DNA from: Burkholderia cepacia GG4
Lineage (GTDB): Bacteria; Pseudomonadota; Gammaproteobacteria; Burkholderiales; Burkholderiaceae
Reading direction: 5' to 3'
DNA: 64,000 bases
Assembly (NCBI RefSeq): GCF_000292915.1
Contig: NC_018514.1
Location: 2,604,001 to 2,668,000, forward strand
Made by a program: the position numbers and the translations under genes
Shown: positions 3,737-23,119 of the stretch, one piece after another
Layout of the letters: every line of letters starts with the position of its first letter
Position numbering within the stretch: position 1 is the first letter of the stretch
The notes under the pieces: model-generated
Database searches by the model: none
What the model was told of the DNA's origin: nothing
Seen by the model: only the letters and a program-made list of their open reading frames with translations

Positions 3737-4187
3737 GAATCCGGTTGCGTGGGGCGTGATGATTGGACCGGGCGGGCCGGTCGGATGCGAACGATGCTAG
3801 TGCTCACTCGCTTAAGCGTTGCTTAACGCGCAGGGTGACCGGTGATCAGAGTCCGTGCGCCGCGCGCGAACGCACTTAGAGGCTGCACTGCAACACAAGT
3901 TCACACAATTGTCATATTCCTGCGCGACCGTCTCCCGCAAAAGCTCACCAACGATCCCGTAAAGGCTCACGTTTTTCACATCGTGGCGTCATTGATGCGT
4001 GTGACTATCGGGCCGCCACGCGCGATCGATGCCGTTTGCATCATTCGCCTCAACATTTACATCGTAACTAATTCGAAATCGGCAACAATTAATTCCGAAT
4101 GCGGCATCGCACAACGGCAACGCACAGGCATAGGATTACGGGCTTACGAGCACTCATCCACGAAGCGATCTACAACAAGGAGTCCGC
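3737..4187. other. 451-base intergenic region carrying two iteron-like sites
   Basis: No credible gene was found here. The region separates the divergent PAP2 and adc genes. It is AT-richer than its surroundings from about 4030 to 4110, where the adc promoter probably lies. Two copies of the RepA-iteron motif sit at 3933-3949 and 3955-3971. Confidence 0.7.
3933..3971 (-). repeat. Pair of dispersed RepA-iteron-like sites
   Basis: TCCCGCAAAAGCTCACC (3933-3949) and TCCCGTAAAGGCTCACG (3955-3971) are inverted copies of the origin iteron consensus GGTGAGGCTTTTCGGGA. They are spaced 22 bases apart, two helical turns. The first two iterons of the origin array (21691 and 21713) have the same 22-base period. 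They lie about 18 kb from the array. Confidence 0.7.
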
Positions 4188-4928
4188 ATGAAACCCAGCG
4201 ATGTCCGATCGAAAGCGTTTGCGATGCCGTTGACCAGCCCGGCATTCCCGATGGGCCCGTACCGTTTCGTCGATCGTGAGTTTCTGATCATCACGTATCG
4301 CACCGATCCCGACCGTCTGCGCGAGATCGTCCCCGAGCCGCTGAAGATCACCGAGCCGCTCGTGCATTACGAATTCATTCGCATGGCCGATTCGACCGGC
4401 TTCGGCGACTACACCGAAAGCGGCCAGGTGATCCCTGTCGAGTACAACGGCCAGGCCGGCGGCTACACGCTCGCGATGTATCTCGACGATCACCCGCCGA
4501 TCGCCGGCGGCCGCGAGCTGTGGGGTTTCCCGAAGAAGCTCGCATCGCCCACGCTGAACGTGAACACCGATCACATCCTGGGCACGCTCGACTACGGCAA
4601 GGTGCGCGTCGCGACCGGCACGATGGGCTACAAGCACAAGGAACTCGACATCGACGAGCAGACGAAGCGCCTCGCCGGTCCGAACTTCCTGCTGAAGATC
4701 ATCCCGCACGTCGACGGCACCGCACGCGTGTGCGAACTGGTGCGCTACTACATGCAGGACATCAAGATGAAAGGCGCATGGACGGGCCCCGCGTCGCTCG
4801 AACTGGCGCCGCACGCGCTGGCGCCGGTGGCCGACCTGCCGGTGCTCGAGATCGTCGAAGCCCGCCACATCGTCGCAGATTTGACACTTGGCCTCGGCGA
4901 AGTCGTCTACGATTACCTGGCTCAGTAA
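4188..4928 (+). CDS. adc: Acetoacetate decarboxylase
   Basis: A 246-residue protein of the Adc family, which decarboxylates acetoacetate to acetone and CO2 through a Schiff base. The catalytic lysine pair is visible in [10 protein letters not shown] (Lys116-Lys117), matching Lys115/Lys116 of the clostridial enzyme; the substrate-side arginine lies in the GGRE segment just before. The length fits the family. AAGGAG lies at 4180-4185, close to the ATG. The 3-hydroxybutyrate dehydrogenase gene starts 52 bases downstream, so the pair would process 3-hydroxybutyrate to acetoacetate and then acetone, fitting polyhydroxybutyrate breakdown. Confidence 0.95.
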
Positions 4929-4980
4929 CACGTCCGCAGTCCTTACTCCCTGTCAATCCTTTCACCACGGGAAATTCGAA

Positions 4981-5766
4981 ATGAGCAACCTGAATGGCAA
5001 GACCGCAGTCGTCACGGGCGCCGCAAGCGGCATCGGCAAGGAAATCGCACTCGAGCTCGCCAAGGCGGGCGCGGCCGTCGCGATCGCCGACCTGAACCAG
5101 GACGGCGCGAATGCGGTTGCCGACGAGATCAACAAGGCAGGCGGCAAGGCGATCGGCGTCGCGATGGACGTGACCAACGAGGAAGCCGTGAACAGCGGCA
5201 TCGACAAGGTGGCCGAGGCGTTCGGCTCGGTCGACATCCTCGTGTCGAACGCGGGCATCCAGATCGTCAACCCGATCGAGAACTACGCGTTCTCCGACTG
5301 GAAGAAGATGCAGGCGATCCACGTCGACGGCGCGTTCCTGACGACCAAGGCCGCGCTCAAGCACATGTACAAGGACGATCGCGGCGGCGTCGTGATCTAC
5401 ATGGGTTCGGTGCACTCGCACGAAGCGTCGCCGCTGAAGTCGGCGTACGTGACGGCCAAGCACGGGCTGCTCGGCCTGGCCCGCGTGCTGGCGAAGGAAG
5501 GCGCAAAGCACAACGTGCGCTCGCACGTCGTGTGTCCGGGCTTCGTGCGCACGCCGCTGGTCGACAAGCAGATTCCGGAGCAGGCGAAGGAACTCGGCAT
5601 CAGCGAAGAAGAAGTGGTGAAGAAGGTGATGCTCGGCAATACGGTCGACGGCGTGTTCACGACGGTGCAGGACGTCGCGCAGACGGTGCTGTTCCTGTCG
5701 GCATTCCCGAGCGCCGCGCTCACCGGCCAGTCGTTCGTCGTCAGCCACGGCTGGTTCATGCAGTAA
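4981..5766 (+). CDS. bdhA: 3-hydroxybutyrate dehydrogenase (SDR family)
   Basis: A 261-residue short-chain dehydrogenase. The nucleotide loop is [12 protein letters not shown] (residues 12-23), NAG is at 90-92, and the catalytic Ser143, Tyr156 and Lys160 are all present (MGSVHSHEA, then SAYVTAKHG). The close of the protein ([15 protein letters not shown]) is typical of D-3-hydroxybutyrate dehydrogenases, which oxidise 3-hydroxybutyrate to acetoacetate with NAD. The ATG at 4981 begins [14 protein letters not shown]; the open frame upstream runs into adc. Its product is the substrate of the adc enzyme encoded just upstream, which supports the assignment. Confidence 0.93.
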
Positions 5767-5771
5767 CGCCC

Positions 5772-5793
5772 TCGCCTCCCTGACGGGAGGCGA
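5772..5793 (+). terminator. Hairpin after the 3-hydroxybutyrate dehydrogenase gene
   Basis: A 9-base perfect stem (TCGCCTCCC / GGGAGGCGA) with a TGAC loop starts 5 bases after the stop codon. Only a short T stretch follows, so it may stabilise or attenuate the transcript before the patatin gene and not stop it fully. Confidence 0.5.
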
Positions 5794-5888
5794 TTCCCGC
5801 ACCACGCCTATTCTCAAGATGGCGTGCCGTCGATCGACGACACGCCATCCGTCTCCGCCATCGATGGCGGGATTTCTCGGAGCAACTG

Positions 5889-7106
5889 ATGAAACCGCAC
5901 GCGCGTACAGAAAAGCAGGCCGTCGATGCGGCGGACCTGCATCACGAAGCCGGTGCGCCGGCCGCTGCGCGGTCGCTGCCGTACGAAACCATCGCCCTCG
6001 TCCTGCAGGGCGGCGGCGCGCTCGGCGCGTATCAGGCCGGCGTGTTCGAAGGGCTGCACGAGGCGGGCGTTCCGCTCGACTGGATCGCAGGTATCTCGAT
6101 CGGCGCGCTTAACACCGCGCTGATCGCGGGCAATGCGCCCGAACATCGGGTCGAGCGGCTGCGCCAATTCTGGGAAACGATCTGCCAGCCGGCGTTCTTT
6201 CCCGCGATGCCGGCTGCGTTCGAATTCGCGCTGTTCAACAGCATCGACCAGATCCGCACGTTCTTCACCGCATCGCAGGCCGCGAGCGCGATGATGCAGG
6301 GCCAGCAGGGTTTCTTCGCGCCGCGTTTCCCGCCGCCGCTGCCGGGTGTGTCCGATCATCCGGAAAAGATCAGCTGGTACGACACGTCGGCACTGCGCGC
6401 GACGCTGCTCAAGCTGTGCGATTTCGACCGGATCAACTCGGGCGAGACGCGCGTGTCGGTCGGCGCGGTCAACGTCGGCACCGGCAACTTCGTGTACTTC
6501 GACAACTCGCGCATCCGCCTCGAACCCGAGCACTTCATGGCGTCCGGCGCACTGCCGCCCGCGTTCCCGCCGGTCGAGATCGACGGCGAGTATTACTGGG
6601 ACGGCGGCGTCGTGTCGAACACGCCGCTGATGGAAGTGCTGCGCGCGCGTCCGCGGCGCGACACGCTCGCGTTCCAGGTCGATCTGTGGAGCGCGCGCGG
6701 GCCGCTGCCGCGCACGATGGCCGACGTCGCGGAACGCACGAAGGACGTGCAGTATTCGAGCCGCACGCGTTTCGTCACCGACACGCTGCAGCGCGAACAG
6801 CGCTACCGCAACGTACTGCGCCACGTGCTCGAGCAGGTGCCGGAAGAGCAGCGCAAGAACGACCCGTGGTGCATCGAGGCTGAAGCGATGTCGAGCGGGA
6901 AGAAATACAACATCCAGCACCTGATCTATCAGCAGAAGGCGTACGAGCACCACTACAAGGACTATCAGTTCGGTCTGTCGACGATGCGCGACCACTGGTG
7001 CGCGGGTCTCGACGACATCCGCAAGACGCTCGCGGTCAAGGACGGCCTCGCGCTGCCCATCAACGACGCGGGCTTCGTCACGCACGACATTCACCGCCGC
7101 CGGTGA
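5889..7106 (+). CDS. Patatin-like phospholipase / acylhydrolase
   Basis: A 405-residue patatin-domain protein. It shows the oxyanion-hole motif GGGALGAYQAG (residues 41-51), the nucleophile elbow GISIG (Ser70) and the catalytic DGG (in YYWDGGVVSNTP, about residue 237), so the Ser-Asp dyad is intact. Homologues in Proteobacteria with a C-terminal extension like this one (after residue 280) often sit near polyhydroxybutyrate genes. That fits its place behind adc and bdhA, from which it is separated by 122 bases and a hairpin. The substrate, whether lipid or polymer-associated, is not shown. No signal peptide is seen, so it is likely cytoplasmic. Confidence 0.9.
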   Translation: MKPHARTEKQAVDAADLHHEAGAPAAARSLPYETIALVLQGGGALGAYQAGVFEGLHEAGVPLDWIAGISIGALNTALIAGNAPEHRVERLRQFWETICQPAFFPAMPAAFEFALFNSIDQIRTFFTASQAASAMMQGQQGFFAPRFPPPLPGVSDHPEKISWYDTSALRATLLKLCDFDRINSGETRVSVGAVNVGTGNFVYFDNSRIRLEPEHFMASGALPPAFPPVEIDGEYYWDGGVVSNTPLMEVLRARPRRDTLAFQVDLWSARGPLPRTMADVAERTKDVQYSSRTRFVTDTLQREQRYRNVLRHVLEQVPEEQRKNDPWCIEAEAMSSGKKYNIQHLIYQQKAYEHHYKDYQFGLSTMRDHWCAGLDDIRKTLAVKDGLALPINDAGFVTHDIHRRR

Positions 7107-7166
7107 TGCCGTGTGCGACGGACCGGCGCGCTGCCTGCGCCGGTCCGTCCTCGTTTCCGATTCGAC

Positions 7167-7631
7167 ATGCCGATTTTCATTGCGCTATTCGCGCTCATCG
7201 CCATTGGATGGGGCGCGGTACACCTGTTTCATGTCATCGCCGCGCAGTTCGGCCAGCCAGTCGCGATCGCGGCCGCGGTGCTCGCCGCCGCGATCCTGAT
7301 CGCGCTGATCGCGTGGTGGATCAAACGCCGCCGCGACATCGCACCGAATACGAAGGAACAAGGCTGGACCCACATCGTGCATCGCGCATGGGGCGAATTG
7401 CGCGTATCCGCGACGCAGGGGCTGCTGTGGCTGTCGCATGACGGCGCGGACGGCCGCTATACGCTGTCGCAGCTCGACGCCTGCGAGGCCGCGCCGATCG
7501 ATGGCCGCTGGCATCTGGTCGTGCGCGTGCGCGACGCCGTGCGCGGCGAATGGAACCTGCCGATGATGGACAAGCGCGATGCGCAGCGCTGGGCGCGCGT
7601 GCTGATGCTCGCGAAGGACAACCGGCTGTAA
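7167..7631 (+). CDS. Membrane protein of unknown function
   Basis: A 154-residue protein with two hydrophobic helices (about residues 2-20 and 27-48) joined by a short loop, followed by KRRR and a soluble domain of about 100 residues. That domain includes WTHIVHRAWGELRVSATQG and ends ARVLMLAKDNRL. No family is recognised. The ATG at 7167 was preferred to an upstream in-frame start because the hydrophobic segment begins at once. It follows the patatin gene by 60 bases and could be cotranscribed. Confidence 0.6.
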   Translation: MPIFIALFALIAIGWGAVHLFHVIAAQFGQPVAIAAAVLAAAILIALIAWWIKRRRDIAPNTKEQGWTHIVHRAWGELRVSATQGLLWLSHDGADGRYTLSQLDACEAAPIDGRWHLVVRVRDAVRGEWNLPMMDKRDAQRWARVLMLAKDNRL

Positions 7632-7657
7632 CACAGCGGCGCCGTTCGCCAAACGCC

Positions 7658-8542
7658 CTATCGCGCGCCGAGCGCCCATAACGCGTCGAGCACGTGCTGG
7701 GTCGACCGATCGATCGGGCCGGCGCGATGCGCGATGCCCAGTTCGCGCCACAACGCCGGACGCAGCGGCCGCATGACGATCCGTGCGTCGGGCAACGGGG
7801 CGCCCGCCTCGTGCGGCAGCAGCGTCGCGCCGTAACCCGCGGCGACCAGACTCTTGATCGCATCGTTGTAGTTGAGTTCGATGCGGGGCTCGGGCCGGTG
7901 ACCGCCGAGCGCGAACCATTCCGTCGTGAGCCGCGACAGGCGGGTCGTCGCATCGTTGAGAATCAGCGGACGCGTGGCCAGATAGGCCGGCGTCACCCGC
8001 GCCGGAAGCCGCCAGTCGGCAGGCAGAAAGGCCAGCACCGGATCGCGCCGCCACGCGCGGATCGACAACCCCGCCACCGCCGGCTGCGGCAACGCCACCA
8101 GCCCGACGTCGAGCGTGCCCTGCGCAATGCGCGCCAGCGTGTCTTGCGACGTGAGCACCGCGATCTGGACATCGATGTCCGGATGCCGCTCGCGCAGCCG
8201 GACCACCGCCTGCGGCAACAGATGGGCGATCGCCCCGGTCGATGCCCCGAGCCGCACCCGCCCGGTCAGCCCCTGCACTTGCCGCTCCACGTCGTCGAGG
8301 GTCGACTCGACCTCGGCCAGCAGGCGGCGCGCCCGCTCCACCAGCACGGCACCGATGGTTGACGGCTGCACGTTGCCGCGCGTGCGGGACAGCAACGGCG
8401 CACCGATGCGGCTTTCGAGTTCGGCGACATGAAGGCTGACCGTCGGCGGCGCAAGATGAAGCAGTTGCGCCGCGGCCACGAAGGATCCCTGGTCGGCGAT
8501 TGCGACCAGTGTACGCAGCCGGTCCAGGCTGATCTCGCGCAT
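7658..8542 (-). CDS. LysR-family transcriptional regulator
   Basis: A 294-residue LysR regulator. The N-terminal winged helix ([34 protein letters not shown]) is followed by a substrate-binding domain from about residue 90. The ATG at 8542 has GAGAGGTGGGC just upstream and gives the usual LysR N-terminus; a longer open frame begins at 8590. It is transcribed away from the argC-like gene, a common arrangement in which the LysR protein controls its divergent neighbour. It could also respond to an unrelated effector. Confidence 0.88.
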
Positions 8543-8555
8543 GCCCACCTCTCGT

Positions 8556-8585
8556 TCAGGAAAACTGAATCCGGTAATCAGGAAA
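8556..8585. promoter_or_regulatory. Putative LysR operator between the LysR gene and argC
   Basis: The 118-base divergent gap holds a direct repeat TCAGGAAA at 8556-8563 and 8578-8585 (22 bases apart). It also has an inverted CTGA-N9-TCAG (8565-8581). Both patterns fit LysR binding sites, which are partly palindromic and spaced by two helical turns. Confidence 0.4.
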
Positions 8586-8660
8586 TTCAACTTTTCCTAT
8601 TCTAGGCGTTCGGTGGACGATACGGCTTTCCCGATGTCCGAAACGGGGAACGCGACCATC

Positions 8661-9617
8661 ATGAGCCTCCCCACTGTCTACATCGACGGCGACCAAGGTA
8701 CGACCGGATTGCAGATCCACGAGCGCCTGCGGGATCGCACCGACCTGCGGCTCGTCACGCTGCCGGATGCCGAGCGCAAGGACCCCGCGCGGCGCGCTGA
8801 AGCGATCAACGCATCCGATATCGCGATCCTGTGCTTGCCCGACGCCGCCGCGCGCGAAGCGGTCGGCTTCATCCGCAATCCGGCGGTACGCGTGATCGAC
8901 GCGAGTTCGGCCCATCGCACCGAACCGGAATGGGTGTACGGCTTTCCCGAGATGGTCGAAGGACACGCGCAGACCATCGCGCGCGCGCAGCGCGTCACCA
9001 ATCCGGGCTGCTATCCGACGGGCGCGATCGGCCTGCTCCGGCCGCTGCAACACGCCGGGCTGCTGCCGCGCGACTACCCGGTGAGCATCCATGCGGTGTC
9101 CGGTTACTCGGGCGGCGGGCGAACCGCCGTTGACGCATTCGAATCGAACGGCGCGGCACACGCGAAGCCGCTGCAGGTCTACGGCCTCGCGCTCGCGCAC
9201 AAGCACGTGCCCGAGATCCAGCTGCATGCCGGGCTCGCGCACCGTCCGCTGTTCGTGCCGGCTTACGGCGCCTATCGGCAGGGCATCGTGCTGACCGTGC
9301 CGATCGAGCTGCGCCTGCTCCCGGCCGGCGTGACCGGTGAGTTGTTGCACGCGTGTCTCGCGCACCATTACGCCGGTGCGCGCCACGTCGAGGTCACGCC
9401 GCTCGCGGATACGCGCGCGATCACGCATCTCGATCCGCAAGCGCTGAACGGTACGAACGACCTGCGGCTCGGCGTGTTCGTCAATGCCGATCATGGCCAG
9501 GTGCTGCTGTCCGCCGTGTTCGACAATCTCGGCAAAGGGGCATCCGGCGCGGCCGTGCAGAATCTCGACCTGATGCTCGGTGCAGAGAGCGACGCGAAAA
9601 CAGCGAAAGCAGCGTGA
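8661..9617 (+). CDS. argC: N-acetyl-gamma-glutamyl-phosphate reductase (type 2)
   Basis: A 318-residue enzyme reducing N-acetylglutamyl phosphate to the semialdehyde with NADPH, a step in arginine synthesis. The catalytic cysteine is Cys117 in [10 protein letters not shown]. The N-terminus [14 protein letters not shown] is the short type-2 nucleotide-binding loop, and the length matches the type-2 group (about 310). The ATG at 8661 was chosen by homology; earlier in-frame starts exist at 8541 and 8634. Burkholderia normally carry another argC on chromosome 1, so this may be an extra copy or one recruited to another pathway. The divergent LysR regulator suggests specific induction. Confidence 0.9.
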
Positions 9618-9749
9618 GCCGCGTGCGGGCGCCATCGTCCGCCTGCCCGGCGCATCGCGGCCAGCGACGCGCCGGTGCCCACGGCACGCTGCCGGCTCGC
9701 GATGCGGTCGCGAGCCGTAAACGGGCGTGTGCCGACGCTCCGCACATGC

Positions 9750-9766
9750 CCCCGTAAAAGCTCACC
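9750..9766 (-). repeat. Dispersed RepA-iteron-like site
   Basis: CCCCGTAAAAGCTCACC is an inverted match to the origin iteron consensus. It lies in the 160-base gap between the convergent argC and LysR genes and closely resembles the site at 3933. Confidence 0.65.
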
Positions 9767-9777
9767 TTTGACCGATT

Positions 9778-10701
9778 TCAGGTCGCATCGTCGCTCGCAG
9801 CGGCATTCAAACCGGCAAGCGCCTCCGCCAGAAAATCGACACACACGCGCACTTTCGCCGAAGCCGCGACGCGTTCCGGATACACCGCCCAGATGTTCGC
9901 CGGCTGAATCGCGTCCGGCAGCACGCGACTGAGTTCGCCGCGTTCGATCAGCGGCCCCGCTTCCCAGATCGAACGCAACACGATCCCGCGCCCGGCGAGC
10001 GCCCATTGCACGGCCACCTCGCCGTGGTTCGTCGACAGCGCGCCGCCGACCTTCACCGTTGCCGTTTCTCCGCGCAGGTTCAACCGCCAGACGCCGAACG
10101 GATGGTCGCGCTCCTTGATCGCGAGACAGTCGTGCGAAGCGAGATCCGCGAGCGTGCGCGGCGTGCCGCGCCGTGCGAGATAGTCGGGCGACGCGCACAG
10201 CACCCGATAGTTCGCGGCAAGGCGGCGCGCGATCAGGTGATCGGCGATGTCGTCGCCGATGCGCACGTCGAGGTCGTAGCCCTCGCCCGCCACGTCGACC
10301 AGCCGGTCGAACAGATCGAGCCGCACGTTTAGCTGCGGATAGCGCGCGGAGAAGTCGAGCAGCGCCGACGCGACGACATGGCGGCCGAAGCCGAAGCTGC
10401 TCGAGATGCGCAGCGTGCCGCGCGGCACCGTGCGCGTGGTCGATACGTCCTCGACGAGATGATCGACGTCGTCGAGAATCTTCTCGGCCCGCGCGAACAC
10501 GCGTTCGCCGGCCTCCGTGACCGTCACGCGACGCGTCGAGCGATGCAGCAGCCGCGTGCCGAGCTGCGCCTCGAGCAGCGCGATACGCTTGCTCACATAC
10601 GCGGGCGACACCGCGAGCTGCTCCGCAGCCGCGCTGAAGCTCGTCAGGCGGACGACCAGGCTGAAGACGCGCAGGTCGTCGAGATTCGGCGATTTATTCA
10701 C
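9778..10701 (-). CDS. LysR-family transcriptional regulator
   Basis: A 307-residue LysR regulator when read from the GTG at 10701, with the DNA-binding segment DLRVFSLVVRLTSFSAAAEQ near the N-terminus and QLAVSPAYVSKRIALLEAQLG as the recognition helix region. An ATG at 10770 would add 23 residues with no family support. The effector domain follows from about residue 95. It is divergent from the tartrate dehydrogenase gene 118 bases away, so it is likely the regulator of tartrate or malate use; this is inferred from position only. Confidence 0.87.
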   Translation of the reverse strand: MNKSPNLDDLRVFSLVVRLTSFSAAAEQLAVSPAYVSKRIALLEAQLGTRLLHRSTRRVTVTEAGERVFARAEKILDDVDHLVEDVSTTRTVPRGTLRISSSFGFGRHVVASALLDFSARYPQLNVRLDLFDRLVDVAGEGYDLDVRIGDDIADHLIARRLAANYRVLCASPDYLARRGTPRTLADLASHDCLAIKERDHPFGVWRLNLRGETATVKVGGALSTNHGEVAVQWALAGRGIVLRSIWEAGPLIERGELSRVLPDAIQPANIWAVYPERVAASAKVRVCVDFLAEALAGLNAAASDDAT

Positions 10702-10818
10702 GATTCGTGGAAAGTCGATTAACCTTTCGCACGATTTTAATCTGAATGGAAATAAATAAAATGGCGTCATGTTCCGCTGCGCACGCTGCCAGCGGCCCGA
10801 CCAGCCAAGGAGGCTCGC

Positions 10819-11904
10819 ATGAGCGACAAGACGTACAGGATTGCCGTCATCCCCGGTGACGGCATTGGCCGTGAAGTAATGCCCGAGGGCCTGCGCGCGC
10901 TCGACGCCGTGACGGCACGCTTCGGTATCCGTTTCCAGTTCGAGCAGATCGACTGGGCGAGCTGCGACTACTACGCGCAGCACGGCAAGATGATGCCGGA
11001 CGACTGGAAGGCCCAGCTGTCGGGCATGGACGCGATCCTGTTCGGTGCGGTCGGCTGGCCCGCGACGGTACCCGACCACATTTCGCTGTGGGGTTCGCTG
11101 CTGAAGTTCCGCCGCGAGTTCGACCAGTACATCAACCTGCGGCCCGCGCGCCTGTTCGACGGTGTGCCGTCGCCGCTCGCCGGCCGCAAGGCAGGCGACA
11201 TCGACTTCATGATCGTGCGCGAGAACACCGAGGGCGAATATTCGTCGGTCGGCGGCACGATGTTCGAGGGCACCGAGCGCGAAGTGGTCATGCAGCAGTC
11301 GATCTTCACGCGTCACGGTACCGAGCGCGTGCTGAAGTTCGCGTTCGAACTCGCCCAGCGCCGCGCGAAGCGCCTGACCGTCGCGACGAAGAGCAACGGC
11401 ATCGCGATCAGCATGCCGTGGTGGGACGCGCGCGCGGCCGAAATGGGCGAGCGCTATCCCGAGATCACCGTGGACAAGCAGCATATCGACATCCTGTGTG
11501 CGCGCTTCGTGCTGCAGCCGGACCGCTTCGACGTCGTCGTCGCGTCGAACCTGTTCGGCGACATCCTTTCCGACCTCGGTCCGGCCTGCACGGGCACGAT
11601 CGGCATCGCACCGTCCGCGAACCTCAACCCGGATCGCACGTTTCCGTCGCTGTTCGAACCGGTGCACGGCTCCGCGCCGGACATCGCGGGCCAGTACATC
11701 GCGAACCCGATCGCGATGATCTGGTCGGCGGCAATGATGCTCGACTTCCTCGGCAACGGCACGGGCCGCGAACGCGAAGCGCACGACGCGATCGTCGCGG
11801 CGATCGAGGACCTGCTGCGTACGGGGCCGCGCACGCGCGATCTCGGCGGTCAGGCGGGGACGCAGGAAGTGGGCGAGGCGATCGCTGCGCGGATCGCGGG
11901 CTGA
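10819..11904 (+). CDS. ttuC: Tartrate dehydrogenase/decarboxylase (D-malate dehydrogenase type)
   Basis: A 361-residue enzyme of the isocitrate/isopropylmalate dehydrogenase family. The NAD and substrate signatures are visible: VIPGDGIGREV at the N-terminus, IVRENTEGEYSS in the middle and NLFGDILSDLGPACTGTIGI near the metal site. The sequence around LRPARLFDGVPSPLAGR and its length are closer to tartrate/D-malate dehydrogenases (TtuC, DmlA) than to LeuB. It would oxidise tartrate or decarboxylate D-malate with NAD, Mg or Mn. AAGGAGG sits at 10808-10814 before the ATG. The divergent LysR gene probably controls it. Confidence 0.9.
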   Translation: MSDKTYRIAVIPGDGIGREVMPEGLRALDAVTARFGIRFQFEQIDWASCDYYAQHGKMMPDDWKAQLSGMDAILFGAVGWPATVPDHISLWGSLLKFRREFDQYINLRPARLFDGVPSPLAGRKAGDIDFMIVRENTEGEYSSVGGTMFEGTEREVVMQQSIFTRHGTERVLKFAFELAQRRAKRLTVATKSNGIAISMPWWDARAAEMGERYPEITVDKQHIDILCARFVLQPDRFDVVVASNLFGDILSDLGPACTGTIGIAPSANLNPDRTFPSLFEPVHGSAPDIAGQYIANPIAMIWSAAMMLDFLGNGTGREREAHDAIVAAIEDLLRTGPRTRDLGGQAGTQEVGEAIAARIAG

Positions 11905-12002
11905 AAGACCGATGTGAAGGGTGCGCGGTTGCCAGGCGGTCGATGGAGGTCGTGTTCAGGGGTGAGCCACACGACTGACTGCTGCGCACCTTGGTTGATT
12001 CC

Positions 12003-12030
12003 GACACGCACGTCTGGATGCGTGCGTGTC
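12003..12030 (+). terminator. Hairpin downstream of ttuC
   Basis: GACACGCACG and CGTGCGTGTC form a perfect 10-base stem with an 8-base loop, about 100 bases after the ttuC stop. No T-run follows, so termination is uncertain. Confidence 0.4.
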
Positions 12031-12352
12031 GATGTCGATTTCGAACGGTGAGCAATGCGGTTCGATGGCACGCACGGTTATGCGTCGATCCATCACCGTG
12101 TCTGGCGTCACGTTGAAGTCGAGCGGTGAGTTGCATCGCGCATCGATACACACCGCTTGAATCTCGCCACTGTGCGTGTATGGAGCAAATGCGCCACCGA
12201 TGTCGCATTCGATTCGCACGTGAGCGACCAAAGCTCGTGCACAGCAATGCATGCTGTGCTTCCGTCAGCGCAATCGCGCCGTTTCCTGCGAAGATTGATC
12301 GGTGAGATGCCGGGCGTGAAAAATCACACCGTCCGGCACAGAATGCCCCTTC

Positions 12353-12398
12353 TCCCGAAAACACTCACCTCAGCACACGCCTCCCGTATTTCCTCACC
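12353..12398 (-). repeat. Pair of dispersed RepA-iteron-like sites
   Basis: TCCCGAAAACACTCACC (12353-12369) and TCCCGTATTTCCTCACC (12382-12398) are inverted copies of the origin iteron, 29 bases apart. They sit in the intergenic region downstream of the DUF1348 gene. Confidence 0.7.
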
Positions 12399-12462
12399 GT
12401 TGGGCACGGACGACGCGCTCGATGCACGATCGAGCACGTCCCCGCATCGTCATCGTGCGGCG

Positions 12463-12942
12463 TCACAGCCCGAGATCGGACAGGCCGGGATGGTCGTCCG
12501 GACGGCGGCCGAGCGGCCAGTGGTACAGGCGATCCGCTTCGCGAATCGGCAGATCGTTGATGCTCGCGTGGCGATGCGCCATCAAGCCGTTTTCGTCGAA
12601 CTCCCAGTTTTCGTTCCCGTATGAGCGGAACCAGTTGCCGGCGTCGTCATGCCATTCGTATGCGAATCGCACCGCGATGCGATTGCCGCCGAACGCCCAC
12701 AGCTCCTTGATCAACCGGTAGTCGAGCTCGCGCGTCCATTTCCGCTGCAGCAGGCCGACGATCTCGTCGCGGCCCGTCACGAACTCCGCGCGATTGCGCC
12801 ACCGGCTCTGCGGCGTATAGGCGAGCGAGACGCGCTGCGGGTCGCGCGTGTTCCACGCATCCTCCGCGGCGCGCACTTTCTGGCGCACCGTGTCGAGCGT
12901 GAAGGGTGGAACGGGCGGACGAACTTCCGGGGAAGCGGCCAT
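12463..12942 (-). CDS. DUF1348 (nuclear transport factor 2-like) protein
   Basis: A 159-residue protein of the DUF1348 family, a SnoaL/NTF2-like fold. The recognisable run is [20 protein letters not shown], then [30 protein letters not shown] and the end [13 protein letters not shown]. No catalytic role is established for the family. It follows the TetR gene by 55 bases on the same strand, so the two probably form an operon in which the regulator controls this protein. The ATG at 12942 gives the family N-terminus. Confidence 0.85.
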
Positions 12943-12997
12943 GGGATGCTCCTGTTCAAGGTTTGGGCCGCGCACGAACGCAGCCGGTTGGGACGCG

Positions 12998-13612
12998 TTA
13001 CTTCGACGCTCGAGACACCGTATCGAGCAAGAGTTCGGCGGTTGCGCGCGCATCGCGCGCGACGCTTGCATCGCCACTGACGAGCGCCACGCCGATCGCG
13101 CCGTCGATCAGCACCAGCCATTGACGCGCGACGCGGGCCAGCCCGCGGCGCTCGATCCCGGCGGCGTCGGCGTACGCGTCGAACCGCTCGCGCACGAACG
13201 CGAGCAAGCGTGCCTTGTGCAGACGTGCGACGACGCGCACCGGATCGTCGGCATCGGCAATCTCGCCGGACGCGTTCAGGAACGCGCAGCCGTGAAAATC
13301 GGGTTGCACAAACCAGTCACGCAGCACCTCGAACATGCCGAGCAAGTGCGCACGCGGTGACTTGCCACGCGCCAGCGTTGCGTCGACGAACCAGCGCATC
13401 CAGCGTTCGTCACGGCGCTCGAGCGCGGCGACGACCAGCGCCTCCTTCGATTCGAAATGCGAATAAAAGCTCTTTCGCGCGGCACCCGACCGCTTCACGA
13501 TCGCATCGACACCCGTGGCGTGGATGCCGCCCGAGTAGATCAGCGCTTCGGCCGCGTCGAGAAGCCGGTCGCGAACGGCTGGTTCGCCGAAGAGATCATC
13601 ATGTGTGTTCAT
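12998..13612 (-). CDS. TetR/AcrR-family transcriptional regulator
   Basis: A 204-residue regulator. The N-terminal helix-turn-helix occupies residues about 12-58 ([34 protein letters not shown]). The ligand-binding helical domain follows, with a C-terminal part typical of the AcrR group. It is first in a two-gene unit with the DUF1348 gene. A perfect 14-base palindrome lies 12 bases upstream of its start, suggesting it represses its own operon. The ligand is unknown. Confidence 0.88.
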
Positions 13613-13623
13613 GGGTTTACGGT

Positions 13624-13637
13624 AGAACGATCGTTCT
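13624..13637. promoter_or_regulatory. TetR operator palindrome
   Basis: AGAACGATCGTTCT is a perfect 14-base palindrome placed directly before the TetR start codon, as is usual for self-repressing TetR regulators. Confidence 0.6.
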
Positions 13638-13803
13638 CACTCGTCAACACCCGGGCGAAAAGGCCCTGTCGGCGGGAGGGCCGAACGCCGCGTGGTTCCG
13701 ATGGCGCACGGCGCATTTCAGGCGGCGTTTACGACATTTTTTCTTGAAGCGAACGCATGGCGCTCACTACACTTCGGTCACCCTGTCTGGCCGAAAGGAC
13801 ATC

Positions 13804-14442
13804 ATGCAGCGACCGGAATCCGCACGCTCCCGGCGTGCCCATGCGGCTTATGCGAAGCGGCTCGACGGCCGCGTCGTCGTACGGCGTTTCGATCCGCGCA
13901 GCGATTCGTACGAGTCGCTGACCGCGTTGCTACATCGCGCGTATGCGCATCTCGGCGCCGCGGGTTTCAACTGTCCGGGGGTCGACCAGCCGGCGTCGGC
14001 GACGCGTGAACGCACGCTCACCAGCGAATGTTTCGTCGCGCTCGGCAGCGGGCATCTGGTCGCAACGATCACGATACAGCCGCACGATCCCGATTCGCGT
14101 TGCGATCCGTACCGCAGCCGACGCGTCGCGACGCTCGGCCAGTTGGCCGTCGATCCGGCCTGGCAGGACCGCGGCATCGGCCGTGCGCTGCTTGCGTTCG
14201 CGCAACGGCGGGCTGCCGCGCGTGGCGCGACGCACATCGCGCTCGATGCGCCGCATGCGGCTGTCCGGCTCGTCGAGTTCTATCGCCGCGAAGGGTTTCA
14301 GTTGATCGATGTGATGCGGTTTGCAGCGCATAGCTACGACAGCGCGATCCTGTGCAAAGCCGTCGGGGTGCCCGGCGAGCGGATGCCTGCATCCGACATG
14401 ACATCGATCGACGTCGCGCAGCGTGCCGACGCGGCGTCATGA
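13804..14442 (+). CDS. GNAT-family N-acetyltransferase
   Basis: A 212-residue protein. The acetyl-CoA binding motif A is visible as LGQLAVDPAWQDRGIGRALL (Q/RxxGxG/A as QDRGIG), and motif B as VEFYRREGFQLI. The N-terminal 60 residues are a poorly conserved extension. The substrate is unknown. The ATG at 13804 follows a 190-base gap after the divergent TetR gene. Its stop codon overlaps the next start (ATGA at 14439), so the two are translationally coupled. Confidence 0.85.
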   Translation: MQRPESARSRRAHAAYAKRLDGRVVVRRFDPRSDSYESLTALLHRAYAHLGAAGFNCPGVDQPASATRERTLTSECFVALGSGHLVATITIQPHDPDSRCDPYRSRRVATLGQLAVDPAWQDRGIGRALLAFAQRRAAARGATHIALDAPHAAVRLVEFYRREGFQLIDVMRFAAHSYDSAILCKAVGVPGERMPASDMTSIDVAQRADAAS

Positions 14443-14840
14443 AACACGATGCCGACGACGATCGCGCGCGGCTTGCCCTGCGGCATGTCCGCATGCGTGC
14501 GGCACTGTGGATGCGCGGTCTGTCGAAGCTGACGGTGATCACGATCGCGGTCACGCAAATACTGACGCTCGTGTTCGACGCTCTGCTCGTTTCAGTCGGC
14601 GACACGCCGGAAGCCGCGACGTTGCTGCTGTTCCGCTTCGTCACCTGCGCGCTCGTCAGCTTCTGGCTTCAGGCGGACGCATCGCGTGCGTATCGGCATG
14701 CGGCGCAACACGGGCTCGTGACGGTTTCCGGCGTGCATGGCGAGCTGATCGAGATCGCACCGCAATGCCCGAAGCGCTGGCTCGTCGTGCTGAGTCTGCA
14801 GCTCGAACCGCGATGGTTGAACGGTGAGCGAATCAAATAG
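14439..14840 (+). CDS. Hypothetical protein with hydrophobic segments, coupled to the acetyltransferase
   Basis: A 133-residue protein with a hydrophobic stretch at about residues 30-52 (LTVITIAVTQILTLVFDALL) and a weaker one at 62-77, so it may be membrane-associated. The C-terminal part is soluble (VTVSGVHGELIEIAPQCPKR). No family is recognised. It overlaps the GNAT gene by four bases. Its last codons contain a GGTGAG iteron half-site at 14823. Confidence 0.55.
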   Translation: MKHDADDDRARLALRHVRMRAALWMRGLSKLTVITIAVTQILTLVFDALLVSVGDTPEAATLLLFRFVTCALVSFWLQADASRAYRHAAQHGLVTVSGVHGELIEIAPQCPKRWLVVLSLQLEPRWLNGERIK

Positions 14841-15336
14841 CATGCGGCGCACCGGTCGATGCCGACAGGCCGGCTAACGGGTGAGTTGGCACGTCATCGA
14901 TCGCCTCACGCATCGAGGCTGCCGTGGGAACGGAGCTAGACCGTGGCAAGCGGGCGAGGCGGCACGGGCCGCGCTATTCAAGCGCGGCAAGCGAGAACGA
15001 AAGGGTAAGAAGAAAGACACGGCGCCGAGCGACGCGACAGCGGGGACAGGGGAGGAGCCTTGATAGGTGAGGTGCATGCGCAATGGCATGTCACCGATGG
15101 GTCCCGGGGGATCGCAGCGTGATCGCCCTCGCATCACTAACGAGAAACCGCGTGCAGCCGTTGAATTCTGCGCCCACGGGTGCAGCGAATGCATGATCGA
15201 GCTGCCGTTCGGCACGCAAACACAGCTCCCGAATTTCCTCACCTTAAGCGTTTGCCGAAGCCGCCGGGCCTCGACAAACGCTCATACCGACGCGAGCGGG
15301 GCAGCCGGCAAACGCGCCGAGCGGCCCCGCCGGCAC
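14841..15336. other. 496-base intergenic region with iteron half-sites
   Basis: No supported gene. GGTGAG half-sites lie on the plus strand at 14880 and 15066, and a full inverted iteron-like site lies at 15227-15243. The pattern parallels the region 11905-12462. Confidence 0.6.
15227..15243 (-). repeat. Dispersed RepA-iteron-like site
   Basis: TCCCGAATTTCCTCACC is an inverted origin-type iteron. Its flanks, CACAGC before and AAGCGT a few bases after, are shared with the site at 20046, so the similarity extends beyond the 17-mer. Confidence 0.7.
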
Positions 15337-16365
15337 TCAGACCGTCCAGTCGAGAATCACCTTGCCGCTTTCACCGGACAGCATCGCGGCGAAGCCTTTC
15401 TCGTAATCGTCGGCCGCAAAGCGATGCGTGATGATCGGCGACAGGTCGAGGCCGCTTTGCAGCATCGCGACCATCTTGTACCAGGTCTCGAACATCTCGC
15501 GACCGTAGATGCCCTTGATCTCGAGCCCCTTGAAGATCACCTGGTTCCAGTCGATCGCCGTCTGCGCGGGCGGAATGCCGAGCAGCGCGACCTTGCCGCC
15601 GTGATTCATCGCCTCGAGCATGCTCGTGAATGCGCTCGGCACGCCCGACATCTCGAGGCCGACGTCGAAGCCTTCCGTCATCCGCAGGTCGGCCATCACG
15701 TCGCGCAGCGACTCGCGTGCGACGTTGACCGCACGCGTCGCGCCCATCTTGCGCGCGAGCTCGAGCCGGTAGTCGTTGATGTCGGTGATCACGACGTTGC
15801 GCGCGCCGACATGCTTCGCGATCGCGACAGCCATGATGCCGATCGGGCCGGCACCGGTGATCAGCACGTCCTCGCCGACGAGGTTGAACGACAGCGCCGT
15901 ATGCGTCGCATTGCCGAACGGATCGAAGATCGACGCGAGATCGTCGGAGATCTCGGGCGGAATCTTGAACGCGTTGAACGCCGGAATCGCCAGATACTCG
16001 GCGAACGCGCCCTCGCGGTTCACGCCGACGCCGACGGTGTTGCGGCACAGATGCCGGCGCCCCGCACGGCAGTTGCGACAGAAACCGCACGTGATGTGGC
16101 CTTCGCCGGACACGCGATCGCCGATCGCGAAGCCGCGCACTTCCTGCCCCATCTCGACGATCTCGCCGACGTATTCGTGACCGACGTGCATCGGCACGGG
16201 AATCGTCTTCTGCGCCCAGTCGTCCCACTTCCAGATATGGATGTCGGTGCCGCAGATCGCCGTGCGGCGAATCTTGATCAGCACGTCGTTGTGTCCGACT
16301 TCGGGACGCTTCACGCGCGTGAGCGTGAGGCCCGGGCCGCGTTCGAGCTTTGCCAGTGCTTTCAT
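15337..16365 (-). CDS. tdh: L-threonine 3-dehydrogenase
   Basis: A 342-residue zinc-dependent medium-chain dehydrogenase oxidising L-threonine to 2-amino-3-ketobutyrate with NAD. The catalytic zinc ligand Cys38 ([10 protein letters not shown]) and GHEYVGEI are present. The structural zinc cysteines lie in [15 protein letters not shown], and the nucleotide loop is [12 protein letters not shown]. The length equals that of E. coli Tdh. It is 13 bases downstream of kbl on the same strand; Kbl uses its product, so the two form the usual threonine-to-glycine operon. Confidence 0.96.
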
Positions 16366-16378
16366 GATCGCGCCTCCG

Positions 16379-17578
<1,200 letters not shown>

Positions 17579-17662
17579 CGCAAAGCTCCTGACAGGGATT
17601 CGCATTCCGGCACGCGCCACTCGTGGCGGCAGCGCAACGGCCTGCTACTGTTATAGTCGGTC

Positions 17663-17716
17663 GTTCGGTTGACCGCACTTATCCGATATGCCGAACTAGA
17701 ATTCGAAATACCGAAC
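17663..17716. promoter_or_regulatory. Putative operator between kbl and its XRE regulator
   Basis: Two direct copies ATGCCGAAC (17688-17696) and ATACCGAAC (17708-17716) are 20 bases apart. An inverted GTTCGG lies at 17663-17668. All are in the 161-base divergent promoter region. The spacing puts them on one helical face, as expected for a dimeric helix-turn-helix repressor. Confidence 0.45.
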
Positions 17717-17739
17717 AACTCTAAGCGAACGGAAACCAA

Positions 17740-18351
17740 ATGGCAAGTTCCTCCGCGTCGCGGCGCACGCCAGCCGGCGCCGCATCGCAGCCGCCGGCCG
17801 TCACGCCGCCGCGGGTCGGCGAGCAAATCCAGCGCCTGCGCAACGAGCGCAAGCTGACGCTCGACGACCTGTCGCGCGCGGCCGGCGTATCGAAATCGAT
17901 GCTCTCCGAGATCGAGCGCGACAAGGCCAATCCGACGATCGCGGTCGCGTGGCGGCTCACGAATGCACTCGGCATCACGCTCGACGAACTGTTCTCGCAA
18001 CCGAAAGCGCCGGAGACGATCCGCGTGGACGGCCCGCACGACATCCCGACGCTCGCCGGCCACGACGGCCGCTACCAGCTGCGCGTGTGGGGCCCGATCG
18101 ACCTGGCCGGCAAGTTCGAGTGGTACGAGCTGACGCTGCCCGGCGGCGGCGCGCTCGTGTCGAACGCGCACGAACCCGGCACCCGCGAGCACCTCACCGT
18201 GCTGCAGGGTGCGATGGAAATCGAAGCCGCGGCGGCGAGCCGACGCCTGAAAACCGGCGACACGGCGCGCTACCCGGCCGACACACCGCATGCGATCCGC
18301 AACCCGGGCAAGGGCGAGGCCCGCGCATTACTGATCGTGATCCATCGCTGA
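17740..18351 (+). CDS. XRE-family regulator with cupin sensor domain
   Basis: A 203-residue protein. Residues 25-85 are an XRE helix-turn-helix (QIQRLRNERKLTLDDLSRAA, VSKSMLSEIERDKANPTIAV). Residues about 120-200 are a cupin barrel (HLTVLQGAMEIEA, GDTARYPADTPHAIRNPG). This architecture is typical of small-molecule-responsive regulators beside amino-acid catabolic genes. Its divergence from kbl-tdh makes it the likely controller of threonine breakdown, possibly also of itself. A low-complexity Pro/Ala/Ser tail of about 20 residues precedes the DNA-binding domain. Confidence 0.9.
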   Translation: MASSSASRRTPAGAASQPPAVTPPRVGEQIQRLRNERKLTLDDLSRAAGVSKSMLSEIERDKANPTIAVAWRLTNALGITLDELFSQPKAPETIRVDGPHDIPTLAGHDGRYQLRVWGPIDLAGKFEWYELTLPGGGALVSNAHEPGTREHLTVLQGAMEIEAAAASRRLKTGDTARYPADTPHAIRNPGKGEARALLIVIHR

Positions 18352-18389
18352 CGATGCGGATAGCTGGCCGAAAGGCCAGTTGCGGAAAA

Positions 18390-18409
18390 TACTGTATGTT
18401 TGTACAGTA
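18390..18409 (+). promoter_or_regulatory. LexA (SOS) box
   Basis: TACTGTATGTTTGTACAGTA fits the proteobacterial LexA consensus CTGT-N8-ACAG exactly. It also keeps the outer TA bases of the E. coli consensus on both sides. It lies 72 bases before the start of the small gene at 18481 and no other gene starts nearby, so that gene is predicted to be induced by DNA damage. Confidence 0.75.
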
Positions 18410-18480
18410 TACGGACATTCCGCCATGCATGGCCGGAGCCGGCGCACCGAGGCGCCCGCCCCGGTCGACAGGAGCCTGCG

Positions 18481-18858
18481 ATGACAGAAGAACAAGATTT
18501 GGCCGCGCTCAGCTTCAAGGCTGCTGCGCACGACCTCGAGCTGATCGTTCGCCATATTGCCGAGCGCTACATCCGTCAACGCGTCCCGCTGTCGTGGCGC
18601 CTGCTGCACGCCATCGAAGCCGAGGCGCTCGCCGATCTCGGCTTTGCCAGCCGGCACGAGGCCGGCATGCGTCAACTGTTCGAACGGCCATCGGACATGA
18701 CCTTTCCCGAAACGGACGATCCGATCGACTTCGGCCGGTCGAACGCGCTCCCTGCCGTCTTCTCGTTCGCGGTCCTCGCGTATGAAGCGGCGGCCAGGTC
18801 GCAGGATGCGGCGCCCCGCGAGCGCATTCACCGTCCGTCCAAAGCGTGGGGCGACTGA
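18481..18858 (+). CDS. Hypothetical protein, predicted SOS-inducible
   Basis: A 125-residue soluble, acidic protein with predicted helices (LSFKAAAHDLELIVRHIAER, SWRLLHAIEAEALADLGF). No family is recognised. The ATG at 18481 follows AGGAG (18470-18474). Its only strong context is the LexA box upstream, which makes it a candidate DNA-damage response gene, for instance a cell-division, replication or nuclease modulator; this is inference. It lies just before a recombinase-like gene and the chromosome 2 origin. Confidence 0.65.
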   Translation: MTEEQDLAALSFKAAAHDLELIVRHIAERYIRQRVPLSWRLLHAIEAEALADLGFASRHEAGMRQLFERPSDMTFPETDDPIDFGRSNALPAVFSFAVLAYEAAARSQDAAPRERIHRPSKAWGD

Positions 18859-18960
18859 CGCCATGCCTGGGCCGTCCGACACGGCGGCCCCCTCCCGCAT
18901 CCTGCTGCCCGCGACGTTGCGGAAAGGGCTACCATATACGCAACTAACGGAATAAATAAC

Positions 18961-19974
18961 ATGTCCCTTCCCACGTCCCCCGACACTCCGGCGCGCCCGG
19001 AAGAAAAGGATCTGTTCGATCGCGGCGCGTCCGACTGGATCGTCTCGCCCGAGACCGCGTTCGACGCCTGGCTTGCCATGCAGGACTACCGCCGTTCATC
19101 GGCTGATGTCTATCGCGCGCAATGGGGTGCCTTTCTCACCTGGCTGCGTGCGCATCAGAAGAACCTGGCCACGGTCGACACGGCATCGATTGCGAACTTC
19201 GTCGGCGAGCTTCCGATCCGGAAGACGCAACGAATGCGCTATTTGCGGCTGATCGAGCGCGTGCTCGACCACATCCGGCGCACCGAGTTCGCATCCACCA
19301 ACCCGGCCCGCTTCATTGCTCAGGATGGCGAAGCGAACTGGCGACAGGCACGCGACAACGAGCCGACCGGTTTCCTGACGCCAGCCGAACGCGCGAAGTT
19401 GCTGGCCTACCTGTTTTCGCCGATCAGCGTGTCCGGCTCCGCATACTGGAAAGAACGGCGCGACCGCGCGCTCGTCGCCGCGTTTCTCGGCGCGGGCGTG
19501 AAAACCGGCGAAGCACGTGCACTTACGATTAGTTGCATCAATACGAGTGGAACGTCGCTGCAGATCCCGTCAACGCATCCCGATTTCGCGCGCGAAACCC
19601 ATCTGGCGTCGTTCGCGATCGCGTTGCTCGAAGCATGGCTCGTGGAGCGCAAGCGCCAGGAGATTCCGGGCGATCTCGTGTTCCCGGCCTCGCACGCCGG
19701 GCGGCCGATGCACAAGGCGACGATGCTGCGCGCGATCGATGCGATCGTCGAATCCGCCGGGCTCACGTCGTCGCGCACCGCGCGCGCGAGTCCGCAAACG
19801 CTGCGCAACACCTATGCGGCCGAACTGTTCGAGCACGACGTGGCGCCCGAGCGGGTCGGCCAATGGCTGGGCTTCGTGCGGCCGATTTCGTCGAACCGGC
19901 TGCACCGCGCGTGGAAAAACTGGCGCGATGACCTGGCCAATGGTGCCCCGTCCGACCAGGACGAAACTCCCTGA
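18961..19974 (+). CDS. Tyrosine-recombinase-like protein with lost catalytic residues
   Basis: A 337-residue protein with the two-domain layout of phage integrases/Xer proteins: a core-binding domain at about residues 30-118 and a catalytic-type domain from about 135. In the family, Arg I sits in a G-x-R-x-x-E motif; here it is GVKTGEA with Lys181. HxLR is replaced by QTLR (Gln279, Arg282 kept). The LGH histidine is Phe305 (QWLGF). At the expected nucleophilic Tyr position the sequence reads SSNRLHRAW with no tyrosine. It therefore looks like a DNA-binding relative that cannot recombine. Its place beside the replication locus suggests a role in origin function or segregation, or simply decay. 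Confidence 0.75.
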   Translation: MSLPTSPDTPARPEEKDLFDRGASDWIVSPETAFDAWLAMQDYRRSSADVYRAQWGAFLTWLRAHQKNLATVDTASIANFVGELPIRKTQRMRYLRLIERVLDHIRRTEFASTNPARFIAQDGEANWRQARDNEPTGFLTPAERAKLLAYLFSPISVSGSAYWKERRDRALVAAFLGAGVKTGEARALTISCINTSGTSLQIPSTHPDFARETHLASFAIALLEAWLVERKRQEIPGDLVFPASHAGRPMHKATMLRAIDAIVESAGLTSSRTARASPQTLRNTYAAELFEHDVAPERVGQWLGFVRPISSNRLHRAWKNWRDDLANGAPSDQDETP

Positions 19975-20045
19975 TCCAAAGCCGGCTGCTCACGCGACAT
20001 GATCCGTGAGCAGCCTTGCTCGGCCGCGCTTCACCGTTTCACAGC

Positions 20046-20086
20046 TCCCGAAAAACCTCACCTCAAGCGTCCCGGATCACCTCACC
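20046..20086 (-). repeat. Pair of dispersed RepA-iteron-like sites
   Basis: TCCCGAAAAACCTCACC (20046-20062) and TCCCGGATCACCTCACC (20070-20086) are inverted iterons 24 bases apart. They lie in the 139-base gap between the recombinase-like gene and the convergent KfrA-like gene. Confidence 0.75.
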
Positions 20087-20113
20087 TGTGGGATTGCTGT
20101 GCCTGCCGGCCCG

Positions 20114-21295: not shown

Positions 21296-21334
21296 GGCAG
21301 GACTCACAGACATTGAAATGTTGTGATCATAACG

Positions 21335-21346
21335 AAATACGTATTT
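21335..21346. promoter_or_regulatory. Palindrome upstream of the KfrA-like gene
   Basis: AAATACGTATTT is a perfect 12-base palindrome about 40 bases before the start of the KfrA-like gene. It is a candidate operator for autorepression. Confidence 0.45.
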
Positions 21347-21572
21347 TTTGATACTTGTTTCCGCTGACCGTGGTGAATTTACATCGCTGTGCACAGAAAT
21401 CGGATCTGTGAGCTGTTCTGGACGAGCCAGCGTTCCGATTCCGTGAAACAAAGCGAAGAAAGTTAGCCAAGTCCTTGTACTAACAGCGTTTTCGAGTAGG
21501 CACAGAAAAAGGGCATTTGTTTCACATGACAACGGACATCGCAGCCTGTGGGTGTTCAGGGGTTGGGGTGTC

Positions 21573-21660
21573 TGTGGAAAACTCGACGGCCGATGTCTTG
21601 AGAGTATTAGAAGTAAACACCCTTGAACCCTTAGTTAAAAACGTTAACGCCACGGCACAG
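21573..21660. other. Putative DnaA box and DNA unwinding element
   Basis: TGTGGAAAA (21573-21581) reads TTTTCCACA on the other strand, close to the DnaA consensus TTATCCACA. It is followed by an AT-rich run at 21596-21660 (TATTAGAAGTAAACA, GTTAAAAACGTTAAC) in otherwise GC-rich DNA. A DnaA box, an AT-rich element and then iterons is the usual order in Rep-type origins. Confidence 0.5.
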
Positions 21661-21690
21661 CCTTATGTAGCAAGGCTTTCCGGCTGACAA

Positions 21691-22999: not shown

Positions 23000-23119
23000 G
23001 GCGGTTGGGGTGAGTGCCGTTTTGCACGCGCACTTCACCGGCTATGGTGAGCATGTCGTTCTGGACGCACATCACCACAGGCGCTATCCTTCCGGAAAAC
23101 TTCTCCTCCGACCCGACGC

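Follow-up and report, generated by a model that had tools for sequence, protein, structure and literature searches.

Beyond Vibrio and Agrobacterium, little is known of how plasmid-derived secondary chromosomes come to be copied once per cell cycle. Loci that restrain an initiator from outside the origin are familiar from other replicons: in plasmid P1, extra iterons outside the origin, the incA sites in one array beside repA, limit the initiator, and the datA locus of Escherichia coli, together with IHF, binds DnaA and stimulates ATP hydrolysis. The subject here is a set of iterons, i.e., candidate sites for the initiator RepA, that lie outside the replication origin (oriC2) of chromosome 2 of Burkholderia cepacia GG4. 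They were studied in a window of 64,000 nucleotides (G000:C2:2604001-2668000) from a genome with two contigs, C1 of 3.46 Mb and C2 of 3.00 Mb.

On the second chromosome (chrII) of Vibrio cholerae, six outlying RctB sites including a 39-mer are described as occupying a 74-kb span about 40 kb from the origin (PMC3937223); they are reported to have no origin activity and to inhibit by titrating RctB (Baek and Chattoraj 2014, PMC3937223), holding the initiator away from the origin (PMC3937223; PMC6090056). The crtS site of Vibrio, which lies on chromosome 1, is described as activating by way of the secondary-chromosome initiator (PMC11711613, PMC13342612). According to a 2026 survey, large secondary replicons mostly finish together with the chromosome, and the timers of further systems are still to be identified (PMC13342612). 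For Burkholderia, Du et al. (2016; PMC4948915) gave ctCCCGAAAAacCTCACCTtt as the c2 iteron consensus and noted for B. cenocepacia J2315, in one sentence of a table legend, that a second iteron cluster on c2 lies 140 kb away from the one at the origin.

An earlier note on the B. cepacia window had drawn attention to eight iteron-like sites left of oriC2, all between genes and all opposite in strand to the origin array. We read these, with a probability of roughly 0.72, as outlying RepA iterons that take part in conserved, distributed negative control of chromosome 2. The observation itself holds in each part: all eight are present and differ from TCCCGNAAANNCTCACC at 0-2 positions; they lie on the + strand, opposite to the - strand array, and are spread over five intergenic gaps as judged from open reading frames (ORFs), Pfam and third-position GC (Table 1). 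A scan of the window for TCCCGNAAANNCTCACC at up to three mismatches gave 37 matches where 4.19 are expected, a number that none of 100 shuffles reached. If a strict site is defined as a perfect match at the 12 core bases of TCCCGNANNNNCTCACC, six of the eight qualify, those at 3955 and 9750 having one mismatch each, where base composition predicts 0.004 perfect-core matches in 16.2 kb. On a position weight matrix (PWM) made from the 19 oriC2 iterons, which themselves score 15.6-28.4, the eight score 18.9-28.4; a weak ninth left match at 4528 (15.2), within the acetoacetate decarboxylase gene, was excluded from the count.

When both contigs were scanned with the PWM and the core, the motif proved not to be equally dense on them: C2 carries 30 perfect cores and C1 none, with about 1.5 expected in the genome from base composition, and 28 of the 30 fall within the interval from -19 to +149 kb relative to repA. 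C1 has nine one-mismatch places, no excess over the reversed control (14 genome-wide at up to one mismatch), and its best match has a PWM score of 18.1. The C2 matches at 752224 and 959690 were attributed to chance, since outside the origin region about 0.7 match is expected; the latter appears, from its translation, to lie within a prophage-like gene. The outlying sites total 25 (8+1+1+3+12), namely the eight left sites, one in an hpnD-like gene, a lone site, three linked to hns and 12 in a tandem array, against 19 at the origin. The statement that intergenic DNA right of the origin lacks sites is literally true within the window, but a perfect site stands there inside the hpnD-like gene, and further sites lie on C2 beyond the window.

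Table 1. Iterons, gaps and origin features of chromosome 2 (window positions unless prefixed C2 or L031)
Feature	Position	Strand	Context
Gap	3737-4187		divergent; holds 3933, 3955
Outlying iteron	3933..3949	+	gap PAP2 / acetoacetate decarboxylase; PWM 25.2; found again in relatives
Outlying iteron	3955..3971	+	22 bp past 3933 site, gap PAP2 / acetoacetate decarboxylase; PWM 22.0; found again in relatives
Gap	9618-9777		convergent; holds 9750
Outlying iteron	9750..9766	+	gap semialdehyde dehydrogenase / LysR regulator; PWM 22.4
Gap	11905-12462		convergent; holds 12353, 12382
Outlying iteron	12353..12369	+	gap isocitrate/isopropylmalate dehydrogenase / DUF1348; PWM 23.2
Outlying iteron	12382..12398	+	29 bp past 12353 site, same gap; PWM 19.1
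Gap	14443-15336		convergent; holds 15227
Outlying iteron	15227..15243	+	gap acetyltransferase / alcohol dehydrogenase; PWM 20.9; found again in relatives
Gap	19975-20113		convergent; holds 20046, 20070
Outlying iteron	20046..20062	+	gap tyrosine recombinase / kfrA-like gene; PWM 28.4
Outlying iteron	20070..20086	+	24 bp past 20046 site, same gap; PWM 18.9
A+T-rich stretch	21301..21690		GC 0.47; lowest 60-bp GC 0.30; site orientation flips here
oriC2 iteron array	21691..22999	-	19 same-strand sites, irregularly spaced, directly repeated upstream of repA
Inverted repeat of half-iterons	23035..23050		TCACC-N6-GGTGA; upstream of repA
repA	23120..24484	+	Rep3-type initiator, WH1 and WH2 domains; Pfam PF01051 and PF21205
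Outlying iteron	36547..36563	-	within hpnD-like gene (36104-36976 +); perfect core; PWM 26.7
Lone outlying site	C2:2744098	-	beyond window, own genome
Three hns-linked sites	C2:2772080, 2772381, 2772403	+	behind hns gene, beyond window
Tandem array, 12 iterons	C2:2775317-2775587 (L031:11317-11587)	-	23-24 bp apart, convergent gap

Loss of the left sites in close relatives did not occur. They recur at corresponding positions in 20/20 relatives, whose -22 to -2 kb region holds, at a PWM score of at least 17, 147 sites on the + strand and one on the -, in positions that mostly match. Further afield, at least one + site lies at -2.9 to -3.8 kb of repA in all 78 loci with enough upstream DNA, which include named Paraburkholderia, Caballeronia and Trinickia; two + sites stand there in 45 of these loci and an additional - site in 13, and from -2.9 kb outward within the 10 kb upstream of repA the 78 loci have 173 + against 20 - sites. 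Alignments of the five gaps, restricted to flank-anchored relatives (20, 16, 21, 12 and 21 sequences, of a maximum of 21), show the 12 core bases to be 0.95-0.99 identical versus 0.34-0.75 for the remainder of the gaps. The sites at 9750, 12353, 12382 and 20046 are conserved above every other window of their gaps; for those at 3933, 3955, 15227 and 20070, which are not top, 98, 74, 44 and 12 windows are equally good. These alignments and the codon choice in hpnD, described next, place the outlying sites under selection at the level of DNA.

The site in the hpnD-like gene is retained in 19 of 20 Burkholderia relatives. In 20 of 21 genes the arginine within it is encoded by AGG/AGA, a choice made only once among the 654 remaining arginine codons of these genes, the other 653 being CGN. 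The relative that lacks the site (L192, G013) encodes the identical peptide as CGG ATC TTC GGC. Mean synonymous identity across the six codons of the site is unexceptional, with 66 of 280 windows as high, so the evidence for selection here is the choice of codon. The site is also present in 3/3 genomes of other genera, in one of which isoleucine has become valine with the motif intact. A chance origin of the sites was rejected on core conservation, hpnD codon choice and the base-composition expectation. One might still regard the sites as neutral remnants of earlier origin copies or of inserted plasmids, since recombination can copy iteron arrays and the inner sites of the distal array match worse than its end sites; yet core conservation and hpnD codon choice contradict this, and the same gaps are occupied across the genus and some beyond, so that the proposal was rejected as scarcely credible.

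The best evidence from sequence that links the outlying sites to RepA is that they change together with the iteron. In a genome whose RepA is only 34% identical (G078), the iteron is AGGTGAACNNNNRTGGT. The whole genome holds eleven perfect copies of it (control 0), of which six are at the origin, one is far off and the other four are outlying but no more than about 20 kb from repA. In lineages with RepA 38-41% identical, the iteron terminates in CAGGGA, and outlying copies again lie near the origin; an inverted copy just past the array is perfect in G099 and has one mismatch in G079 and G080 (controls 0, 1, 2). These patterns bear on whether the sites bind another protein that recognizes the same DNA sequence as RepA, e.g., a KfrA-like protein, an idea prompted by the kfrA-like gene between the 20046 pair and the origin. 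The 12-base core is identical to that of the oriC2 iterons and the sites co-change with the iteron in diverged RepA lineages, which makes such a protein a very improbable owner of the sites.

As to the initiator and its origin, three features expected of a Rep3-type iteron replicon are present: an initiator gene by the origin, direct iterons and a half-iteron repeat before rep. The inverted repeat of half-iterons, probably the repA operator by its position, stands ahead of repA in 80/80 loci, with only two in the whole window; with the winged-helix domains of the Rep3 type, this makes an autoregulated iteron initiator a fair premise. The RepA sequence is shared at 100% identity with several named Burkholderia, e.g., B. 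anthina LMG 20980, and against the PDB RepA gives a weak match to the R6K pi protein (E 0.0072). The earlier note had counted 20 origin iterons, and our count of 19 replaces it; relatives have 12-19 (median 16, n=78). The A+T-rich stretch beside the array (21.3-21.7 kb) is probably the unwinding region. The sites switch strand near it and near the minimum of cumulative GC skew, which falls in the 1-kb bin at about 20.0 kb. Two genes at 18961-21532 adjoin oriC2: one for a tyrosine recombinase with a Phage_integrase domain, and the kfrA-like gene. Rfam returned 0 matches in the window. Half-iteron words are enriched in two of the left gaps and conserved in just one of them: the gap 11905-12462 carries four GGTGAG words on the + strand (the opposite sense), with 1-5 copies in all 21 genomes examined, and the gap 14443-15336 has three in its own genome and 0-2 in 11 relatives examined.

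The distal locus, which combines the hns-linked sites and the tandem array, lies 145-149 kb right of the origin in B. cepacia GG4 and is orthologous in 20/20 genomes examined. Its order is hns, three sites, a CoA-ligase/acetyltransferase gene, a dense array (14/20) or one or two sites (6/20), and a gene for 190 residues; in these genomes the first site stands 1-2 bases past the hns stop, with a usual spacing of 0/301/323 bp. A double-iteron probe of 23-bp period found the dense array, at up to two mismatches, in 53 of 65 genus genomes, on a single strand per genome (reversed control 0), the remaining 12 being 11 with RepA at most 93% identical and a 170-contig draft (G012). At up to one mismatch it was found in 51/61 Burkholderia and, once each, in 15/337 other genomes of the family (rows hand-counted). 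In these genus- and family-wide scans, counts are from complete tables and positions from among the matches listed. In the 12 genomes with both on one linear stretch, repA is followed 106-185 kb downstream by the array, on the opposite strand, and the locus is 94-273 kb from the origin in further genomes. Probably, it is the same locus as the second c2 cluster of J2315. The available part of Du et al. (2016; PMC4948915) has no analysis of its conservation or function, nor of left sites or an hpnD site, and no functional or comparative study of this cluster was found in the literature searched, in which few subscription journals are covered. In three genomes of other genera, two sites at 113-266 kb from repA follow a homologue of hns that is 59-62% identical, in G106 at a distance of 1.5 kb from this gene; the acetyltransferase gene was found nearby in 1/3 and the 190-residue gene in 0/3. 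The hns-linked part may therefore be older than the dense array, the orthology in other genera being less certain. The end sites of the array outscore the inner ones, 26.5 versus 19.3 (own genome and the mean of 15 arrays; as the rows are related, the P value exaggerates the difference), and strong end iterons perhaps nucleate its filling. A second origin here was tentatively rejected: the gap (GC 0.66) has no DnaA box at up to one mismatch, a weak test in that oriC2 itself has only one.

These contexts also speak to the possibility that the sites are operators through which RepA regulates adjacent genes. In its favour, one gap (3737-4187) is divergent, and the acetyltransferase gene starts about 250 bp beyond two of the three hns-linked sites. 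Four of the five left gaps and that of the distal array, however, are convergent, which renders a promoter role unlikely; one site lies deep in hpnD, and the set as a whole is tied to the origin region, not to any class of genes. As a general role, operators were rejected on the convergent gaps and appear quite improbable.

The earlier note had suggested a distributed locus that sets RepA availability or couples origin firing to replication of the left arm. The first suggestion is the best-supported reading of the sequences, because the perfect motif is found only on C2, the sites show DNA-level selection and they co-change with the iteron; but the locus would be larger than the eight left sites. 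The second finds no support: both arms carry conserved sites, and the cluster richest in them, which here occupies the right arm, has its orthologue on the left arm in G016 (about 260 kb), G020 (about 250 kb) and G063 (about 101 kb, by our own arithmetic). A device specific to the left arm was thus rejected, the cluster being on either arm in relatives; across the genomes compared, the conserved property is proximity to the origin and not the arm. In G016:C3 and G020:C2 the cluster sits about as far from the origin but on the opposite arm, as an inversion across the origin would place it.

Orientation adds a further pattern. It was tallied in 12 genomes from listed perfect sites entered by hand, with distances measured from repA, leaving out origin-array sites, sites on other contigs and the genomes G041, G052 and G063. 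Within 50 kb of repA, 84 sites face the origin and three face away; nine Burkholderia genomes contribute 58 and 0 of these, and three genomes of other genera 26 and 3. Between 50 and 300 kb the ratio is 53 to 37, and beyond 300 kb it is 5 to 15. The hns-linked sites face away from the origin on whichever arm they lie. In B. cepacia GG4 alone, the P for orientation is about 0.02. The near sites had been called inverted, which is true relative to the array but is better worded as pointing at the origin, because the near right-hand site also faces it. A chromosome-wide strand bias was rejected as the cause: it would not end at 50 kb, and far sites do not share it.

This polarity might mean that the near sites act in cis and directionally, with the distal array as a separate sink. 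RepA could pair near sites with the origin array by looping in one fixed geometry, or an outgoing fork could meet bound RepA from its permissive side, or RepA could sense the passage of the fork. If so, control of the initiator would depend on which way the first tens of kilobases are replicated and how far this has gone, and the hns-linked sites and tandem array would constitute a later stage. We know of no directional initiator titration system. The bias at short range favours such an account, but many of the sites are orthologous, so independent orientation events are few, and the hns-linked sites that face away and the mixed copies of G078 do not fit it; we consider it unlikely, if worth entertaining.

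Under the distributed negative control that we prefer, one system would comprise the left sites, the right-arm site in hpnD and a remote cluster, which lies on one arm or the other at about 95-270 kb from the origin. This cluster consists of three sites behind hns, to which most Burkholderia add about 8-13 iterons in tandem. RepA bound to outlying sites would be kept from oriC2 via titration and/or handcuffing with origin-bound RepA, repressing initiation. As for timing, the origin-near sites, because of their position, would be duplicated by forks soon after initiation, providing a larger sink when re-initiation must be blocked. Several observations weigh against this reading. Pure titration gives no reason for 84 of 87 near sites to face the origin; the four outlying copies of G078 are of mixed orientation; a genome with similar RepA identity (G070) has only two perfect copies of its iteron, one of them outlying at -3 kb; and the 12 of 65 genomes without a dense array survive on fewer outlying sites. 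In V. cholerae, moreover, deletion of one such site is reported to give no growth phenotype (PMC3937223).

The observation from which this analysis started is thus confirmed and extended, and the sequences support control of RepA in outline, with a directional feature besides. What emerges is a set of conserved sites with exact coordinates; selection maintains one of them within coding sequence, and one locus has stayed close to the origin despite a change of arm. Control of chromosome 2 in Burkholderia thereby becomes directly testable via site removal. Like the titration loci of Vibrio chrII and incA, the sites are clustered outside but near the origin on the same replicon. With incA they share the form of outlying iterons, and differ in being dispersed over about 170 kb. 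The parallel with datA of E. coli, an origin-near initiator sink doubled soon after initiation (PMC6090056, PMC3937223), is one of logic only: there is no DnaA box at up to one mismatch in L031:8000-11700, and no ATP hydrolysis is implied for RepA. As with crtS, sites away from the origin would work through a secondary initiator, but C1 here is without a perfect iteron, and C1 iterons as a crtS equivalent were rejected on that ground, although crtS need not resemble an iteron. The likeness with Vibrio chrII is that extra initiator sites lie near the origin of a secondary chromosome; here, however, the initiator is of the Rep3 type and not RctB, no 39-mer-like class was seen, and the outlying sites number 25, show an orientation bias and include a 12-site tandem array and one site in a coding gene. 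On the best reading of this analysis, the Burkholderia system may be seen as one like the RctB sites of Vibrio chrII, but larger and partly polar.

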